Assembly (NCBI GenBank): GCA_019747795.1
Contig: JAIEQK010000112.1
Coordinates: 1 to 38,565 of the forward strand
Length of the DNA: 38,565 bases
Direction: 5' to 3'
DNA from: Gammaproteobacteria bacterium
GTDB lineage: Bacteria > Pseudomonadota > Gammaproteobacteria > Ga0077536
Shown: one piece after another, positions 4,416 through 18,572 of the stretch
How the letters are laid out: every line of letters starts with the position of its first letter
Position numbering within the stretch: the first letter of the stretch is position 1
Made by a program: the position numbers and the translations under genes
Notes under the pieces: model-generated
The model's database searches: none
What the model saw: the letters and a program-made list of their open reading frames with translations, nothing else
What the model was told of the DNA's origin: nothing

Positions 4416-7124
4416 TCAGCCTGCGTTCGCGGCCAGCGCCATGCCCACCGCCTGCAGCAGCGCGTGGGCCTCTATTGGTTTCTGCAAGTAGGCAAAGGCG
4501 CCGGAGTCGCGGGCTGGCGTGCCATCCAGGAATGGGCTGTAGCCGGACATGATGATGGCGGGCAGGTGCGGGCGGGCCTCGTGCAACCGGGTGACGAACT
4601 CCATGCCGCTCATGTCCGGCATGGTCTGATCGGTGATGACCAGGTCCACTTCGCGTTCACCGGCCAGGAGCTCGGTGAGCGCGCGTTGCGGTTCATGGAA
4701 GGTGTGGACACGGTAACCCTCGAGATCGAGCAGCTCCGCGACAAACAGCGCCACCGTGGGCTCATCGTCGACGACCAGGATGGTGCCACCCGCGGCCGGC
4801 GGTCGCGCTGTCGCCGGCGGAGGCTGGTATTCGCGAACGGGTTCGGCCGCCAGGGGCAGGAGGATCTCGAAGACCGAGCCCTGGCCGGGCGCGCTGTCCA
4901 GCCTCACGTGTCCGCTCAGCCGATGCGCGATGCCGTGGACCATCGACAGGCCCATGCCGGTGCCCTCGCCCAGCGCCTTGGTCGTGTAGAACGGTTCGAA
5001 GATGCGCGCCTGGATTTCGGGCGCGATGCCCGGGCCGTCATCCCGCAGGGCGATGACGACAAAATCTCCATCGAAGTCCTGCTGGCAGGACGCGCAGCGT
5101 GCCGCGTGCACTCTGCGACGTTCGAGTTCGAGGGTGAGATGGCCGGTGCCCGCCATCGCGTCCCGCGCATTGATGCAGAGATTCATGATGACCTGCTGCA
5201 GCTGGACTGGATCGGCCATCACCAGGGGCAGGTAGCTGTCCGCCCGGAGCTCGACGTTGATACTGGCGGGCAGGGTCGGGCGAAGCAGTTTGATCGACTG
5301 CGCAGCGACCTGCTCGACGGAGGTCGCGGACAGTTCGCTTTCCTCCTGGCGGCTGAAGGCGAGCAGTTGCTGCACCAGGTCCCGCGCCCGCTGACCGCCC
5401 GACTGGATCTCGCGAATATAGCCGGCGAGCCTGTCGCCCATGTCGTGGCCGAAGCGCATGAGCGCCAGATCGGCATAACCGAGGATGCCGGCCAGGATGT
5501 TGTTGAAGTCGTGCGCGACGCCGCCGGTGAGCTGACCGATGGCTTCCATCTTCTGCGCTTGCTGGAGCTGACGGCGAAGCAGTTCCGTGGCAGCTTCGCC
5601 CTCTTTGCGTGTGGTTATGTCAGCGGTGACACCGATGATGGTCGACCCCGTACGACGGGCGCGCGCCTCGAACCACCGGATGCCCTCGACGGGGTGCGAA
5701 ATCCTGAATTCAGCGCTGCGCATGTGGGACGCGGGGGAATAGACCAGCATTTCGTGCAGCGCCAGGGCCACGGCATCGCGGTCTTCGGCGTAAATCAGCG
5801 CGAGGACCTCTTCGAGACGCCATGGGCCCATGCCCGGCAGGCCGACGAGACTTGCGAACACGTCGTGGGACTGGAACATCGACGTTTCGACACTCATTTC
5901 CCAGGTCGCCATGCGCGCGACGTCCAGCGCCAGGAGCAGGCGTGAACGCGCCGCGCGGAGTTCGTCCGCGGCCATCTGCATGCTGTTCACATCGAAGACG
6001 AGGCCGCTGACCTTGCCGCCTCCCTTGCCGTCCAAACGCGTCGCATAGCGTACTTCGGTCCAATGCCAGCGGCCGTCCGCCTGTCGGACACGGTAGCGGA
6101 AGGTATTGGACGGTCCGTCACCGGGAACGCCGTTCAGCGCGTGGCTCATTGCGCGCAGGCTGTCGGGATAGGCGGAATGGCGCTGGAGATCCTCGGGGTG
6201 TACGCGAGCCGCCAGGGTTTCGAAATAGATCGGCTGCTCGCTGGGCTCGATGCCGTAGAGACGCCACAGGGAGCGCGAGCCACTGACCTCTGTGGAGTTG
6301 ATATCACGTTCGAACCAGGCCACACCGGCCTGGTCCATTGCGAGTTCGAATTTCGCTCCCCGTGCCTTGGTCGAGGTGACGTCGGAGATCAGGCCGTAGG
6401 TGCGCACCGGATCGGTGACACGCTCGACGCGGTAGCGGATCTCGATCTCGAGCGGCTGACCGTCCCGGCGCATGATCCGATAACTGGCGACATGCGTCGC
6501 GGTCAGGGCATCCTCGGCGGCCGTGACGGCCTGCACGTCTTGCCGGCGACGCTCGCGCTCCAGCGGTTCGAGGCGCTCCATGAACGTCTCGTAGTCCCAG
6601 GGACCAACCGGGTCATCGAGGTCGTACATTTGCGCGAGCACCGGCGACCCATGGACCGTCGTGCCCTCGCGCTCGTACCAGGCGATGCGCGCATGGTCGA
6701 GGGCATCGAAGATGCGCTCCTCGCGCTGACGCAGCTTGCGCGAGGTGTGCTCGAAGTCGTCGACCTCGGTCAGCGTGCCGACGATCCGGCCCGGCCGACC
6801 GTCAGCGTCGAAATCGTGCGCCTGGGCGCGGGCCAGAATCCAGGTTTCATCCCGCGGCGTCGAGCGGGCGATGCGCAGCGTGCATTCGCATCGCGGTTCG
6901 CCTCCCTGGCGCAGCGATTCGCCGAGTGCCATGACCTTTGCGCGGTCGTCGGGATGCACGTGCGCCCACCAGGTCGCGTCGTCCATGAACTCCGGGCCAT
7001 TCGACAAGCCCAGCAGCGCACGACCGGCGTCGGTCGATCGCCAGCCGCGGCTGACGTCCCACTCGAACACGAAATGACCGAGCGCTTCCAGGTCCCGGGA
7101 GGCAAGTTCGATGTTGAAGGGCAT
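4416..7124 (-). CDS. Cytoplasmic hybrid sensor histidine kinase, 4 PAS + REC
   Basis: The 902-aa product has no signal or membrane segment. Four PAS-like domains occupy about residues 10-125, 135-255, 258-383 and 395-508. They are followed by a HisKA domain with the phospho-acceptor His538 in GGVAHDFNNILAGILGYADL. The HATPase has its N-box (QVIMNLCINARDAM), G1 (DDGPGIA), F-box (FEPFYTT) and G2 (GTGMGLSMVHG). A C-terminal receiver domain has acidic pocket VVDDEP, phospho-Asp832 in ITDQTMPD and Lys882. Family members pass phosphate from His to the fused Asp and often onward to a separate regulator, but none is adjacent. Cys677 and Cys680 lie within the ATPase domain. The ATG at 7124 with GGAAGA upstream is preferred over TTG at 7151. 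The sensed signal is unknown. Confidence 0.93.
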   Translation of the reverse strand: MPFNIELASRDLEALGHFVFEWDVSRGWRSTDAGRALLGLSNGPEFMDDATWWAHVHPDDRAKVMALGESLRQGGEPRCECTLRIARSTPRDETWILARAQAHDFDADGRPGRIVGTLTEVDDFEHTSRKLRQREERIFDALDHARIAWYEREGTTVHGSPVLAQMYDLDDPVGPWDYETFMERLEPLERERRRQDVQAVTAAEDALTATHVASYRIMRRDGQPLEIEIRYRVERVTDPVRTYGLISDVTSTKARGAKFELAMDQAGVAWFERDINSTEVSGSRSLWRLYGIEPSEQPIYFETLAARVHPEDLQRHSAYPDSLRAMSHALNGVPGDGPSNTFRYRVRQADGRWHWTEVRYATRLDGKGGGKVSGLVFDVNSMQMAADELRAARSRLLLALDVARMATWEMSVETSMFQSHDVFASLVGLPGMGPWRLEEVLALIYAEDRDAVALALHEMLVYSPASHMRSAEFRISHPVEGIRWFEARARRTGSTIIGVTADITTRKEGEAATELLRRQLQQAQKMEAIGQLTGGVAHDFNNILAGILGYADLALMRFGHDMGDRLAGYIREIQSGGQRARDLVQQLLAFSRQEESELSATSVEQVAAQSIKLLRPTLPASINVELRADSYLPLVMADPVQLQQVIMNLCINARDAMAGTGHLTLELERRRVHAARCASCQQDFDGDFVVIALRDDGPGIAPEIQARIFEPFYTTKALGEGTGMGLSMVHGIAHRLSGHVRLDSAPGQGSVFEILLPLAAEPVREYQPPPATARPPAAGGTILVVDDEPTVALFVAELLDLEGYRVHTFHEPQRALTELLAGEREVDLVITDQTMPDMSGMEFVTRLHEARPHLPAIIMSGYSPFLDGTPARDSGAFAYLQKPIEAHALLQAVGMALAANAG

Positions 7125-13945: not shown

Positions 13946-16525
13946 TCACACGGCGCGGATGAAGTCGACCACCGCCTGACGCACCGCTTCGTCGTCGTCC
14001 AGGCCGCCGTGGGTGGTGGCGCGGGTCGCGGCGGAGGATCCATCCCAACGCCCGCCCGGGCAATGCAGCTGGCGCACGCGCTGACTCCACTCGCTGGTGG
14101 CGAGCGCCGGCACCAGGTGCTTCTCCATGCCGAGCAGCGGCGTCTCCTCGTGGTCTTCGAAGGAGCGTGACACCAGGTAGAGCAGGGAGTGTCCGTAGGG
14201 CCGGCAGGTGTCGTCGTTGCGCTCGGCGGCGTCCGTGAGGTTGGCTATCAGCATCGGGATCTGTCGCGCAGAAAGCTGATCACCCAGCAGCCGCTGGAAC
14301 AGGTCGATGCGCACCGCCGGCGCGAGCAGCGCCAGCGACGCGAGGTCGAGGCCCTGGTCGAGCGCGCGCTTGCCGAGATAGGCATGCGCGATGGAGCCGG
14401 CCGAATGGCCGATGAGATGCAGGCGCACCGCCGGCAGCGCGCGTTTGACCGTGGCGTCCTTGAACAGCTTGAAGAGCTTCACCATGCCGGCCTCGTTGTG
14501 GCCGGAGAGCGCGTTCGCGTTCTGCTTCATCTCGCCCCACATCTTGCCGCCCGGCAGTCGGGCGATGCCCTCCAGGCGCTGGTCCTTCCAGTCGTCGAAC
14601 CGATCCTTGAGTCGCGCCCAGCGGCCGCCCGCGGCGGTGAGTTCCGCCTCACCCCGGATAACGTCGCTGAACATGTTGGCGAGCGTGCCGCCGGCGCCGG
14701 TCTCCCACATGAGGAAGATGGGAAAGATCTGGTGAGAGTAGAGATGGGGCACCCAGGCGCGCGCGGTCTCGGCCGCGGCGTCCTCGTCGGTGAGCCCGCC
14801 GTGCGCGTAGATGGCGACGTCGAGCGGCGCGTTCGGCTTGAGCTTCCAGGCCTTGCGCGCTTCGACGACGTGATTGGTGAGCAGCGCCGCGAGATCGTCC
14901 TCGCTGGTGCGGAAGCGCCCGCGACGGCTGAGCCGGCCTTCGTTCTCGACATTGACGATGAAGGGCGAGATCTCGTGATCCGCCAGCGTCTCGTTGCTGG
15001 ACAGGAGCGCGCGCCCGCTCTTGGCGTCGATCCGGAGCGAAGGCGCGGAGGCGACCTTTTCGTTCTCCGCCGTCACCACGCCGAGCTGCACCACCCAGCA
15101 GTCCATGGCATTGCGCAGCCAGTCGCCGTAGCGCAGTACCGCGAAACCCCCGCGCCCCCACTCCGGGCCCCAGGAGTTGTGCACGATGAAGCCGTCGCGG
15201 GTGTAGCCGACGATGGCGAAGGCATGGCCCTGGTCCGCCGCGCCGCGTCGATCCTCGATCACCGGGAACTGGTCGACCGCGGTGGCGGAGGGCTCGGCGC
15301 GGGTGCCGAGCAGCGCGTCCCAGCCGGCGTGGGTGAAGGCGCTGGCGTAAACCACGCCCACTTCGTTCAAGGCCACGTGGATGTCGCGCACGTTCTCCGG
15401 CGCGATGCGGTAGTAGGCGCCCATGGGCCGCCGCACCGCGTCCAGCCACCAGTCCTCACCGGGCGTGTTGGTCGCCGGCGGCATGGCGAGCTTTTTCCAC
15501 AGTCGGGACGCGCAGGCGCCGTGGCGCGACCAGCCCTTCAGCGCGCCGCGCAGCGAGGAACCGCTGTCCTCGGTCTCGTCCTCCGACCATTCATCGTAAC
15601 GACGGGCCATGCTGTAGAGCATGTAGCCCGAGATCTCCTCGGCCGGTCGCGCCGAGCGCTCGAGCAGGTATTCGATCACCGTCGCCAGCGCAAAGCCGGT
15701 GCAGGCGTTGGTGTCGGCCTGCTGCTTCATGCGCCGCGGATCCAGGGGCATCAGCGCATCGCGCGGTGACAGGGCGATACTCGGGCGGTACTCCCAGTCG
15801 CGCAGGTCGACCGCGTCGGGCCGCACGTTGCGCTTGTGCTGGGTGCGCCGCGTGACCGCCGGCAGCGGCTCGAAACGCGGGCGGCCCGGCGGCAGGGTCC
15901 TGTCGGGCGCGGTCTTGCGCGCCTTGCCGCGCGCGGCGCGCGCCGGCGCCGCACCGTCCGCGAACTGCGCGTAGGCCGCGGCCATCTTCTCCGCGTAGCG
16001 GTTCTGCGCGTAGGCCGGACCGTTGTAGGCGGCCGCGAACTTGTCCCAGTTCTTCGCGCGCAGCGCGGCCAGGAACGGCGGCCGTGCGATGAAGCGCGCG
16101 AACAGCGCGAGCTGGCCCTCGGCGCCCGCGTACTGCTGCGCGACGAAGGCTTCGACGTCGGCGCAGCCGCAGTAGACGTAGTTGAAGCCCATGATCTGGA
16201 AGAGCCCCCAGCTGGCCGACTGGAGCGCGGCGGCGCGGTCGAGTTGGCAGGCGGCCTCGAGCCGTTTCCATTCGCCCTTGAGACTCCCGGAATACTGCTT
16301 TCGGTCCCACTTGGGATGACTGAGATTGGGCGCCTGCGCGGCGAAGCGCCCGCCGGTCAGGCGATGAAAGACGTGGCCCTCGAACAGCACCTTGGGGCGC
16401 GGGTCATTGGGCAGGAAGCCCTGGCCCGACGCCTCGACCGCCGCCACGGCTTTCAGCGCCGGCACTTCGACGTCCAGCGTCTTGGCGAGCGCTGTCCAGG
16501 CTTCATCGGACACGGTGGTGCTCAT
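13946..16525 (-). CDS. Muramidase + papain-like peptidase + alpha/beta-hydrolase fusion
   Basis: The 859-aa product holds three hydrolase domains. Residues 1-190 match the N-acetylmuramidase family (PF11860): KAVAAVEASGQGFLPNDPRP with candidate catalytic Glu31, KVLFEGHVFHRL, SASWGLFQIMGFNY and AAYNGPAYAQNRY. Residues 190-235 are a basic linker. Residues 240-485 are a C1A papain-like peptidase with Cys275 (TNACTGFAL), His434 (DQGHAFAIVGY) and Asn450 (HNSWGPEWGRGGFAVL). Residues 530-859 are an alpha/beta-hydrolase with Ser708 (LIGHSAGS) and possible His778 or His839. All three catalytic sets look intact. No signal peptide or membrane segment is present. AGGAGG lies five bases before ATG 16525. 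It might cleave cell walls, proteins and esters or lipids of a target; the release route and target are unknown. Confidence 0.88.
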   Translation of the reverse strand: MSTTVSDEAWTALAKTLDVEVPALKAVAAVEASGQGFLPNDPRPKVLFEGHVFHRLTGGRFAAQAPNLSHPKWDRKQYSGSLKGEWKRLEAACQLDRAAALQSASWGLFQIMGFNYVYCGCADVEAFVAQQYAGAEGQLALFARFIARPPFLAALRAKNWDKFAAAYNGPAYAQNRYAEKMAAAYAQFADGAAPARAARGKARKTAPDRTLPPGRPRFEPLPAVTRRTQHKRNVRPDAVDLRDWEYRPSIALSPRDALMPLDPRRMKQQADTNACTGFALATVIEYLLERSARPAEEISGYMLYSMARRYDEWSEDETEDSGSSLRGALKGWSRHGACASRLWKKLAMPPATNTPGEDWWLDAVRRPMGAYYRIAPENVRDIHVALNEVGVVYASAFTHAGWDALLGTRAEPSATAVDQFPVIEDRRGAADQGHAFAIVGYTRDGFIVHNSWGPEWGRGGFAVLRYGDWLRNAMDCWVVQLGVVTAENEKVASAPSLRIDAKSGRALLSSNETLADHEISPFIVNVENEGRLSRRGRFRTSEDDLAALLTNHVVEARKAWKLKPNAPLDVAIYAHGGLTDEDAAAETARAWVPHLYSHQIFPIFLMWETGAGGTLANMFSDVIRGEAELTAAGGRWARLKDRFDDWKDQRLEGIARLPGGKMWGEMKQNANALSGHNEAGMVKLFKLFKDATVKRALPAVRLHLIGHSAGSIAHAYLGKRALDQGLDLASLALLAPAVRIDLFQRLLGDQLSARQIPMLIANLTDAAERNDDTCRPYGHSLLYLVSRSFEDHEETPLLGMEKHLVPALATSEWSQRVRQLHCPGGRWDGSSAATRATTHGGLDDDEAVRQAVVDFIRAV

Positions 16526-16850
16526 GATCTCCTCCTTGCCAGGGCGTGATGCCCGACGTGTGGCTGTGGCGCTGAACCGCATCGCGCGCGTCGCTTGGAA
16601 CGAGGTCGCGGTTGCGAAGCGAGGGCGAAGCTAGCACCACACCCTGGGAGTCGCGATGTACTTTGCCGCAGTTCGCGAATCGCTACCCCGATTGCGGGAC
16701 GCGCTGCGCGGCAGATGCGAAGAGGGGCCGCGCGTGATGAGCCCGTAGACCGCTCAGAGATGCATTGAGAGAGGAGACGAAGAGGGCCCGACGGGCCCTC
16801 TTCGTTGCGTGGAGACGGGTGGTCTCCGACGTGGCGCGCGTCTTGTCGCC
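16526..16850. other. Intergenic region with one terminator hairpin
   Basis: This lies between two minus-strand genes. It contains the hairpin at 16777-16805, which ends the PhoX-like gene, and presumably the promoter of the fusion gene. I see no further gene or repeat. Confidence 0.45.
16777..16805 (-). terminator. Hairpin after the PhoX-like gene
   Basis: ACGAAGAGGGCCC (16777-16789) and GGGCCCTCTTCGT (16793-16805) form a perfect 13-bp stem with a GAC loop, 45 bp past the stop of the minus-strand gene ending at 16851. No T-run follows on the minus strand, so efficiency is uncertain. Confidence 0.65.
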
Positions 16851-18284
16851 TCAGGCGCGCTTGCGGCGCTGCACGGTCGCGAGGCCGGCGAGCGCCGAGC
16901 CGAGCATCCACACCGCGGAGGGCACCGGCACGGGGGCCGGGGTCGCGGTGATTTCGATCATGCGATCGTTGCCGCTCGCAGGATGCTGGATGTTGACCCA
17001 CGCGCGGTTGGCGTTGAAGGGATCGAAGTACAGGCCGGTGAACTCAGAGCCCTGGGTGCCGTTCGAGGCCCAGCGCGCCAGGCCCTCGCCGGCATCCTTC
17101 AGATCGCCATCGCGGTTCAGATCCAGGGCCATCCAGATGTCGTCGTCCACGCCGCCATTGCGGTCTTCGACGATGTAGATGTTGCCGGCGGCGTCACGCG
17201 CGAGATTGTCGGGATTGGCCAACGCAGAACCGACGGCCAGGCCGGTGGCGAGATCGATGGTGCTGCGGTCGGCGAATAGGGACATCTCGTTCGTCGCGAC
17301 GTCGAGCGTGTAGATCTGGTGCAGCGTGGTGGTCGCCATGTACAGCAGTTCGCGCCCGTCACTGGTCGTGCCGATCTGCAGGTCTTCCGGACGCTGGTAA
17401 TCGGTGCCCTTGAACTGCGTCAGGTTGACGGTATTGCGACCGTCGACCGAGACCACGCCGTTGACGTCTTCGATGGTGATGGCGCCGGCCAGGCCGGCGC
17501 CGGTGTTGTCGGTGAAAGCGACCCACGAGCCCGCGCCGACGGCATTCGGCGTATTGCCGTCACCGATGCGGAAGACTTCGTTCACGCCGCCGTCGAAGTA
17601 GCTGTCACCAAGACCGGCGGTGGACGTGTAGCGGTAGAGCGCGCCGCCGTTCAATTCGTCGATGAAGTACATGCGTCCGGCGGAATCGAACTGCAGGCCT
17701 TCATGCGACACGCGCGCGATGGCATTGCGATGCACGGTGTCGACGGTGCCGGTCGGCTTCAAGGGATTGGTCACTTCGAACAGACGGCCGTAGGGGCTGG
17801 TCGAGCCCGCCGCGTTGGTTTCCCAACTCTCTTCCGCGGTGATGAACGTGCCCCAGGGCGTCCAGTAGGAGGCGTCGAACGCGACATGCGAGGCGTTGGA
17901 TGGCGCCGCGGCCGGGCTGCGCCAGATGGTGCTGGTCGCGCCGGTCTGCAGGTCATGGCGCATGATGCCGGCCTGGCCGGTCTCGAACACGGTGAACAGG
18001 TAGCGGCCGGCGTCAGGACCATTCTCGTTGGTCGTGATCATGTCGAAGTTGCCGCTGTTGAACTGGCCGAGGCCGAGCTGCACGTTGCGCTCGACGATGG
18101 TCCGCTGCGAGAACTGCGGGCTCGAGAGCGTGATGGGGGTGGCTTCGCCCGCGCCGCCCACCGGGATCGGACCCGCCGAGCTGGACAGCGGAGTGAAGTT
18201 GTCGAATTCGGTGTCCACGGCAAGCGCGTGGGACGAGATCAGTGCGAGCGCGACAGCGAGAGCCAACTTGTTTGGCCGGATCAT
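16851..18284 (-). CDS. Exported PhoX/DUF839-like protein with PEP-CTERM anchor
   Basis: The 477-aa product has a signal peptide (MIRPNKLALAVALALISSHA) and a propeller-like domain resembling the DUF839/PhoX family: YLFTVFETGQAGIMRHDLQT, WGTFITAEESWETN, RVSHEGLQFDSAGRMYFIDE and LARDAAGNIYIVEDRNGG. PhoX enzymes are calcium/iron alkaline phosphatases, but related proteins vary, and phosphatase activity is not shown here. The C-terminus is VPVPSAVWMLGSALAGL followed by QRRKRA, a PEP-CTERM-type tripartite signal used by exosortase. The protein is therefore probably processed at the membrane and released or attached to surface polymer. ATG 18284 follows GGAGG by eight bases; GTG 18299 is less likely. 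Confidence 0.85.
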   Translation of the reverse strand: MIRPNKLALAVALALISSHALAVDTEFDNFTPLSSSAGPIPVGGAGEATPITLSSPQFSQRTIVERNVQLGLGQFNSGNFDMITTNENGPDAGRYLFTVFETGQAGIMRHDLQTGATSTIWRSPAAAPSNASHVAFDASYWTPWGTFITAEESWETNAAGSTSPYGRLFEVTNPLKPTGTVDTVHRNAIARVSHEGLQFDSAGRMYFIDELNGGALYRYTSTAGLGDSYFDGGVNEVFRIGDGNTPNAVGAGSWVAFTDNTGAGLAGAITIEDVNGVVSVDGRNTVNLTQFKGTDYQRPEDLQIGTTSDGRELLYMATTTLHQIYTLDVATNEMSLFADRSTIDLATGLAVGSALANPDNLARDAAGNIYIVEDRNGGVDDDIWMALDLNRDGDLKDAGEGLARWASNGTQGSEFTGLYFDPFNANRAWVNIQHPASGNDRMIEITATPAPVPVPSAVWMLGSALAGLATVQRRKRA

Positions 18285-18572
18285 GGGAAAGTCCTCCACT
18301 AGGATCGCAAGGGTTCAGAGTTGCGTCGCCGTGGAGCGCGCGCGCCGCGCCCGGCGTCTGGCGTCCGGGTCCGGGTGCGCGTGGGATGCCACAACGAACG
18401 GAGGGCATCTTGCGGAGGGCTTGTTGCACGAGGCCTACGGGCCCGTGACGGTTGCGATGCGTGGATGTGACAGCCGCGCGGCAACGCGCGACTTGCGGCG
18501 CGCGCCGCAGGCGGCGTGCCTCACCACGCTCATGGGTCGTCGCAGGTGTTGCGACGGCGCGCGATCCGCGTG

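Follow-up and report, generated by a model that had tools for sequence, protein, structure and literature searches.

A predicted fusion of muramidase, papain-like peptidase, and alpha/beta-hydrolase, tentatively read as a bacterial lysis enzyme

We describe a bacterial gene whose 859-amino-acid product appears to join three hydrolases in one polypeptide: a muramidase, a C1A papain-like peptidase, and an alpha/beta-hydrolase. The gene spans positions 13946 to 16525 on the minus strand of the window (the whole 38,565-nucleotide stretch of DNA that we analyzed), as delimited by the open reading frame, Pfam, the alignment of relatives, and a predicted model. In other bacteria, relatives put the trio together from other components, a pattern that points to a device for destroying cells more than to chance. 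We tentatively read the window protein as a cytosolic lysis or cell-execution enzyme, with a confidence that falls a little short of even. That these three predicted activities have been brought together independently more than once is evidence that they act jointly, and what papain- and caspase-type proteases of bacteria do in cell death therefore becomes testable with one gene.

Domain architecture and active sites

The source is a 38.6-kb contig from a genome of 5.94 Mb in 331 contigs with a completeness rating of 99%. The open reading frame is unbroken, from an ATG at 16525 to a stop at 13946 to 13948. A second in-frame ATG lies upstream at 16582; we favor the start at 16525 because the alignment of relatives begins at residue 1. 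An earlier note on this DNA had proposed three hydrolases in one chain, and both sequence matches and the predicted fold (mean pLDDT of 79.7 for the whole protein) bear it out. All of the catalytic residues that it named (Glu31; Cys275, His434, and Asn450; Ser708) are present, and we add Glu49. Conservation is counted below over an alignment of 34 rows (18 muramidase rows and 33 rows of the core, by which we mean the peptidase plus the alpha/beta-hydrolase).

Residues 1 to 190 (15956 to 16525, minus strand) form the PF11860 muramidase domain, recognized from Pfam, the fold of the endolysin Pae87, and the conserved E31. The Pfam match covers residues 20 to 188 (E 2.9e-60; 203.9 bits versus a curated cut-off of 22.3), and Pae87 (7q4t) aligns with the predicted model over 181 residues (amino acids 2 to 189) with a Z of 23.2, an rmsd of 1.7, and 42% identity. 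Mutants established Glu29 and Glu46 as the catalytic residues of Pae87 (PMC8972805, in the portion cited here); their counterparts are E31 (codon 16433 to 16435), conserved in 18 of 18 muramidase rows, and E49 (codon 16379 to 16381), kept in the aligned rows. By sequence and modeled fold, the domain is a phage-lysin-type muramidase with both catalytic glutamates intact and a predicted activity. The fold and both glutamates are common to the PF11860 phage endolysins Pae87 and AP3gp15; those enzymes, however, are single-domain or carry a wall-binding domain, whereas the muramidase of the window protein is fused to two more hydrolases and lies on a cellular contig. A disordered linker follows at residues 191 to 235 (15821 to 15955, minus strand), with pLDDT below 50 at residues 192 to 241.

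The peptidase domain comprises residues 236 to 483 (15077 to 15820, minus strand) and is assigned from the xylellain fold, phmmer (E 6.6e-10), and conserved residues. PF00112 matches residues 430 to 467 barely above its cut-off (E 3.7e-4). The nearest solved fold is that of xylellain (3ois), a bacterial C1A peptidase, which aligns with the model over 221 residues (amino acids 236 to 483; Z 25.9, rmsd 2.1); identity over these residues is 24%, and the window domain differs in being the middle of a fusion. Q269, C275, H434, and N450 are conserved in 33 of 33 core rows, and this Gln, Cys, His, and Asn active site on a predicted papain fold places the domain among the C1A papain-like peptidases.

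The alpha/beta-hydrolase domain, residues 495 to 859 (13949 to 15043, minus strand), is assigned from the order of strands and helices in the model and from invariant motifs. Strands are modeled at residues 568 to 574, 601 to 607, 700 to 707 (followed by S708), 728 to 734, 758 to 763, and 817 to 822 (followed by H839). The motifs, invariant across 21 family members, are an oxyanion-type HGG at 575, a GHSAG nucleophile at S708, the candidate acid E768, and the late histidine H839; H575, S708, E768, D771, H839, and D843 are conserved in all 33 core rows. Pfam and NCBIfam yielded no family above cut-off over this domain (a Hydrolase_4 match at residues 693 to 743, E 0.033, is below its own cut-off), and a profile search for solved relatives reached a best E of 0.015. 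The fold-comparison list for the whole model consists mainly of matches to the papain part, and the alpha/beta domain folded alone from its single sequence has a pLDDT of 38. Strand and helix order, nucleophile elbow, candidate acid, and histidine are all present in sequence and model, and the domain is by prediction a member of the alpha/beta-hydrolase superfamily.

Distribution among bacterial genomes

Of 77 loci retained from a scan of genome contigs, 17 match the query nearly end to end (L008 to L016, L018 to L022, L036, L038, and L044; the match length of L038 is not divisible by three), another two (L017 and L041) run off contig ends, 17 match the peptidase and alpha/beta domains only, and 41 match the muramidase only. 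The earlier note had proposed a search for three-domain chains and had raised the idea of an assembly error; the 17 near-complete loci, all outside the source genome, supply the former and refute the latter. They come from Lysobacter, Pseudoxanthomonas, and others, mostly from these two genera, and many are from isolates.

With its own genome counted, the window protein has matches in 3 of 36 genomes of its order and in 7 of 58 relatives, where only the window and one other genome (G047) match from the N terminus. The core profile matches 31 of 369 genomes across the class (15 over nearly the whole length) and 25 of 398 in a phylum sample; the alpha/beta profile matches 9 of 337 genomes in another class and, within one order, 8 of 293 genomes, with strong matches in 4. 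The distribution is patchy and accessory. Judged by sequence, the peptidase and alpha/beta-hydrolase constitute a wider family that occurs also without the muramidase.

Wall hydrolases joined to a constant core

Among the core genes that we examined with local models, 52 have two domains and 16 include a fused wall hydrolase (12 PF11860, 2 GH19, and 2 GH24-like), which always precedes the core. Nine loci (L011, L012, L019, L020, L021, L024, L035, L038, and L041) lie outside the in-chain, adjacency, and neighbor counts, and seven of these entered the core tree through the alignment. One GH19 fusion (L105) is over the Pfam cut-off and the other (L107) below it; among the GH24-like fusions, L152 is below the cut-off and L153 has no Pfam match, nor did its N-terminal domain match any solved chain searched. 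A GH19 lysin has been shown to possess muramidase activity (PMC12329726, in the part cited). In a tree of 75 cores, built by a quick method with SH-aLRT only, an arbitrary root, and L119 left out, the PF11860 rows have one origin, GH19 two, and GH24-like one.

Caspase-linked versions also exist. Three proteins (L113, L115, and L147) combine Amidase_2, alpha/beta-hydrolase, and caspase, with the alpha/beta domain in the middle and Kovacikia minuta among the carriers; in L103, the alpha/beta domain follows Amidase_2 and is interrupted by a frame break. The window protein (P0001) recovers L113 and L115 by blastp, and L113 recovers papain-linked alpha/beta domains by tblastn with E down to 6e-23. 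Homology of the papain-linked and caspase-linked alpha/beta sets is thus supported by these cross-matches as well as by our own profile.

In other loci the wall hydrolase is a separate gene. In L096, a GH108 gene begins 13 bp downstream of the core; in L114, the core adjoins a gene for a protein with GDSL, caspase, and M15 domains. On three rhizobial plasmids the adjoining gene encodes Amidase_2 with PG_binding_1 (R. etli), DUF2272 with SH3_3 (R. gallicum), or PG_binding_1 with a CHAP-like domain below the cut-off (S. fredii). Around the 52 two-domain cores, wall-hydrolase matches number 5 in 100 adjacent genes versus 3 in 434 genes at distance 2 to 6 (one-sided Fisher p 0.007), a figure biased upward in that some of these adjacent genes had served to build the wall-hydrolase models. 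With these models, 47 of the 52 have no wall hydrolase next door, and the core therefore also works without one. Two further observations belong here: a gene at 5023 to 6246 of L088 is DUF2272-like by the local model and has no family by Pfam, and Pseudomonas vancouverensis (L031, 10775 to 12085) has a two-domain core and, two genes away, a separate lysin gene with PG_binding_1 and PF11860. As predicted from sequence, the peptidase and alpha/beta-hydrolase are the constant core, to which unrelated wall-hydrolase families are joined time and again, either by fusion or as a neighboring gene.

That it is the wall domain which is exchanged, and that it always comes first when fused, is also what would be expected if it were a sensor of peptidoglycan or lysin products, for example from phage lysis, that switches on the peptidase and alpha/beta-hydrolase. 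We consider a sensor distinctly unlikely: the catalytic E31 persists in every muramidase row and E49 in those aligned, and the separate wall-hydrolase genes that adjoin other cores include wall-binding domains.

Phage, secretion, and defense contexts

The window protein matches 645 phage records, and the best of those listed fall in the PF11860 domain. When 50,697 phage records were searched for the core, 9 matched, all weakly and over at most 36% of the query. Among 80 IMG/VR loci kept, most of the core is found in L162 only, and the others contain at best the peptidase stretch and little beyond. By sequence, then, phages almost entirely lack the core. The L162 contig, which encodes most of the peptidase and alpha/beta core at 5001 to 6908, may be cellular DNA. 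We recognized neither phage nor holin genes around the window gene, and its Pfam-matched neighbors are cellular. The chance fusion of a housekeeping hydrolase with a lysin domesticated from a prophage would account for the phage-lysin-like PF11860 domain, but one fusion kept in at least two genera, alongside three more independent wall-hydrolase fusions, is hard to call chance, and with no phage genes in the surroundings we find this origin very improbable. PADLOC returned no match for the window protein to a known antiphage defense system at E 0.01.

Muramidase, protease, and lipase are classic activities of antibacterial effectors, and each domain of the window protein could have its own target in a rival into which, or onto which, the protein is injected or released. 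The DUF2272 family, which adjoins the R. gallicum core, includes the Tse1 amidase (PMC10318531, cited in part). The type VI secretion marker TssK (PF05936), however, is absent from the nearly complete source genome (G000) and present in 8 of the 40 genomes searched; the earlier proposal of a contractile-system effector is thus not supported as far as type VI secretion goes. No segment of the protein is hydrophobic enough for a transmembrane helix (the highest Kyte-Doolittle mean over 19 residues is 1.43, by a heuristic that is not a signal-peptide predictor), and no export signal was recognized, in agreement with the earlier note. Nor did we recognize an immunity or secretion gene among the window neighbors, again as that note had it, and many core members have no wall hydrolase at all. 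We judge an effector quite unlikely.

A proposed mechanism and its precedents

A lysis protein, one of the roles proposed earlier, is the most economical reading, supported by the several independent occasions on which a wall hydrolase was added to this core. Of the earlier ideas as a whole, the three hydrolases are supported, the lysis role is favored, the contractile-system effector is unsupported by the type VI marker, the assembly error is refuted, and a predatory enzyme released by lysis is a less probable alternative. The protein would be kept inactive in the cytosol until a stress or invader signal, perhaps proteolytic, activates it. The hardest step to explain is how a muramidase made in the cytosol would get past the inner membrane, and we propose the alpha/beta domain as the opener: a lipase or esterase acting on the inner membrane, it would let the muramidase reach the peptidoglycan, while the peptidase would cleave cell proteins or process its own chain. 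Lysis would follow, benefiting kin or serving as abortive defense. If true, this would be lysis without a holin.

A broader proposal, possible but rather doubtful, is that these proteins belong to a modular bacterial self-destruct family of which the window protein is the fully fused, holin-free form. The peptidase slot would be filled by a papain or a caspase, the membrane-opening slot by an unclassified alpha/beta-hydrolase family, and the swappable wall slot by PF11860, GH19, GH24-like, GH108, amidase, or M15 domains, so that protein, membrane, and wall might all be dismantled by one chain. The comparison also identifies the constant part as an alpha/beta-hydrolase domain to which no Pfam family corresponds.

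The trio with a caspase as its protease, and pairs of caspase and alpha/beta-hydrolase, are already in print, as far as the cited portions of two papers go (PMC3501461 and PMC7159879). Prokaryotic metacaspases with Amidase_2, one of which, in Chitinophaga pinensis, adds a GDSL lipase and was called "a highly destructive weapon," resemble the window protein in uniting a protease and a wall hydrolase, with or without a lipase, in one chain, and the authors who described them suggest that they take part in lysis or cell death (PMC3501461). Those proteins pair a caspase with an amidase, whereas the window protein pairs a papain-like peptidase with a muramidase; section 8 of that paper mentions no alpha/beta domain for them, whereas three similar proteins here carry one. 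The caspase and amidase proteins described in 2012 may contain the same unrecognized domain.

The caspases of VMAP ternary conflict systems always adjoin an alpha/beta-hydrolase gene, according to the cited part of PMC7159879, and thus couple a thiol peptidase to an alpha/beta-hydrolase as the window protein does. In the latter, papain replaces caspase, the coupling is in a single chain, and MoxR ATPase, vWA, and VMAP genes are absent from the ten window neighbors scanned; the alpha/beta families of the two are likened by type alone. The wider VMAP network includes FGS (FGE-sulfatase type) domains, and FGE-sulfatase genes also lie by some cores. For the papain form, the exchange of wall hydrolases, and the alpha/beta domain common to both versions, we found no paper in a literature search that was thin on subscription journals, which agrees, within that coverage, with the earlier statement that this exact domain order was not known as described.

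Gene neighborhoods

The neighbors of the window gene encode a SET-domain protein, an M20 peptidase, a PhoX-like protein, a cupin, and a sulfotransferase, none of conflict type. Around the relatives, where Pfam was run on selected neighbors, CHAT-domain genes and a PAS/GAF gene follow the core in four Achromobacter loci, and FGE-sulfatase genes, a type common alongside metacaspases (PMC3501461, cited in part), are adjacent to it in three loci. Annotated caspase-family, trypsin-like, and YEATS-associated genes lie near the core in R. leguminosarum. PF00656 occurs in 16 of the 33 genomes searched, all of which have the core or at least the alpha/beta domain; most of these occurrences are at a distance from it. 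The neighbors of some core members are of conflict or cell-death type.

Lysobacter and its relatives are lytic soil bacteria, and the three-domain form occurs mostly in Lysobacter and Pseudoxanthomonas, where the Pseudoxanthomonas neighbors, judged from the gene list, are of housekeeping type. Together with the failure to find a secretion signal, this would suit a digestive enzyme freed when cells lyse by other means, feeding kin or degrading debris or prey. Such an enzyme, which we consider unlikely, leaves unexplained both the CHAT, caspase, and FGE-sulfatase pairings of other members and the presence of three activities in one chain with no export signal.

Several minor features accompany these loci. 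In one Achromobacter locus (L023, 8004 to 15901), four consecutive genes on one strand encode the core, a PAS/GAF protein, a CHAT protein, and a 445-amino-acid protein that Pfam does not match. Animal-haem-peroxidase genes occur near rhizobial cores and one other (L148, 11558 to 14475; L151, 10750 to 13652; L111, 7016 to 8917), and cytochrome P450 genes are also close to the rhizobial cores; we take the pair to be reminiscent of oxylipin synthesis. In the window itself, a promoter scan found none, and an inverted repeat with ten-base arms and a 3-base loop (16780 to 16802), terminator-like and absent from the scan's list, separates the trio gene from the PhoX-like gene. The latter (16851 to 18299) encodes a PhoX-domain protein whose C terminus resembles a PEP-CTERM-type sorting tail.
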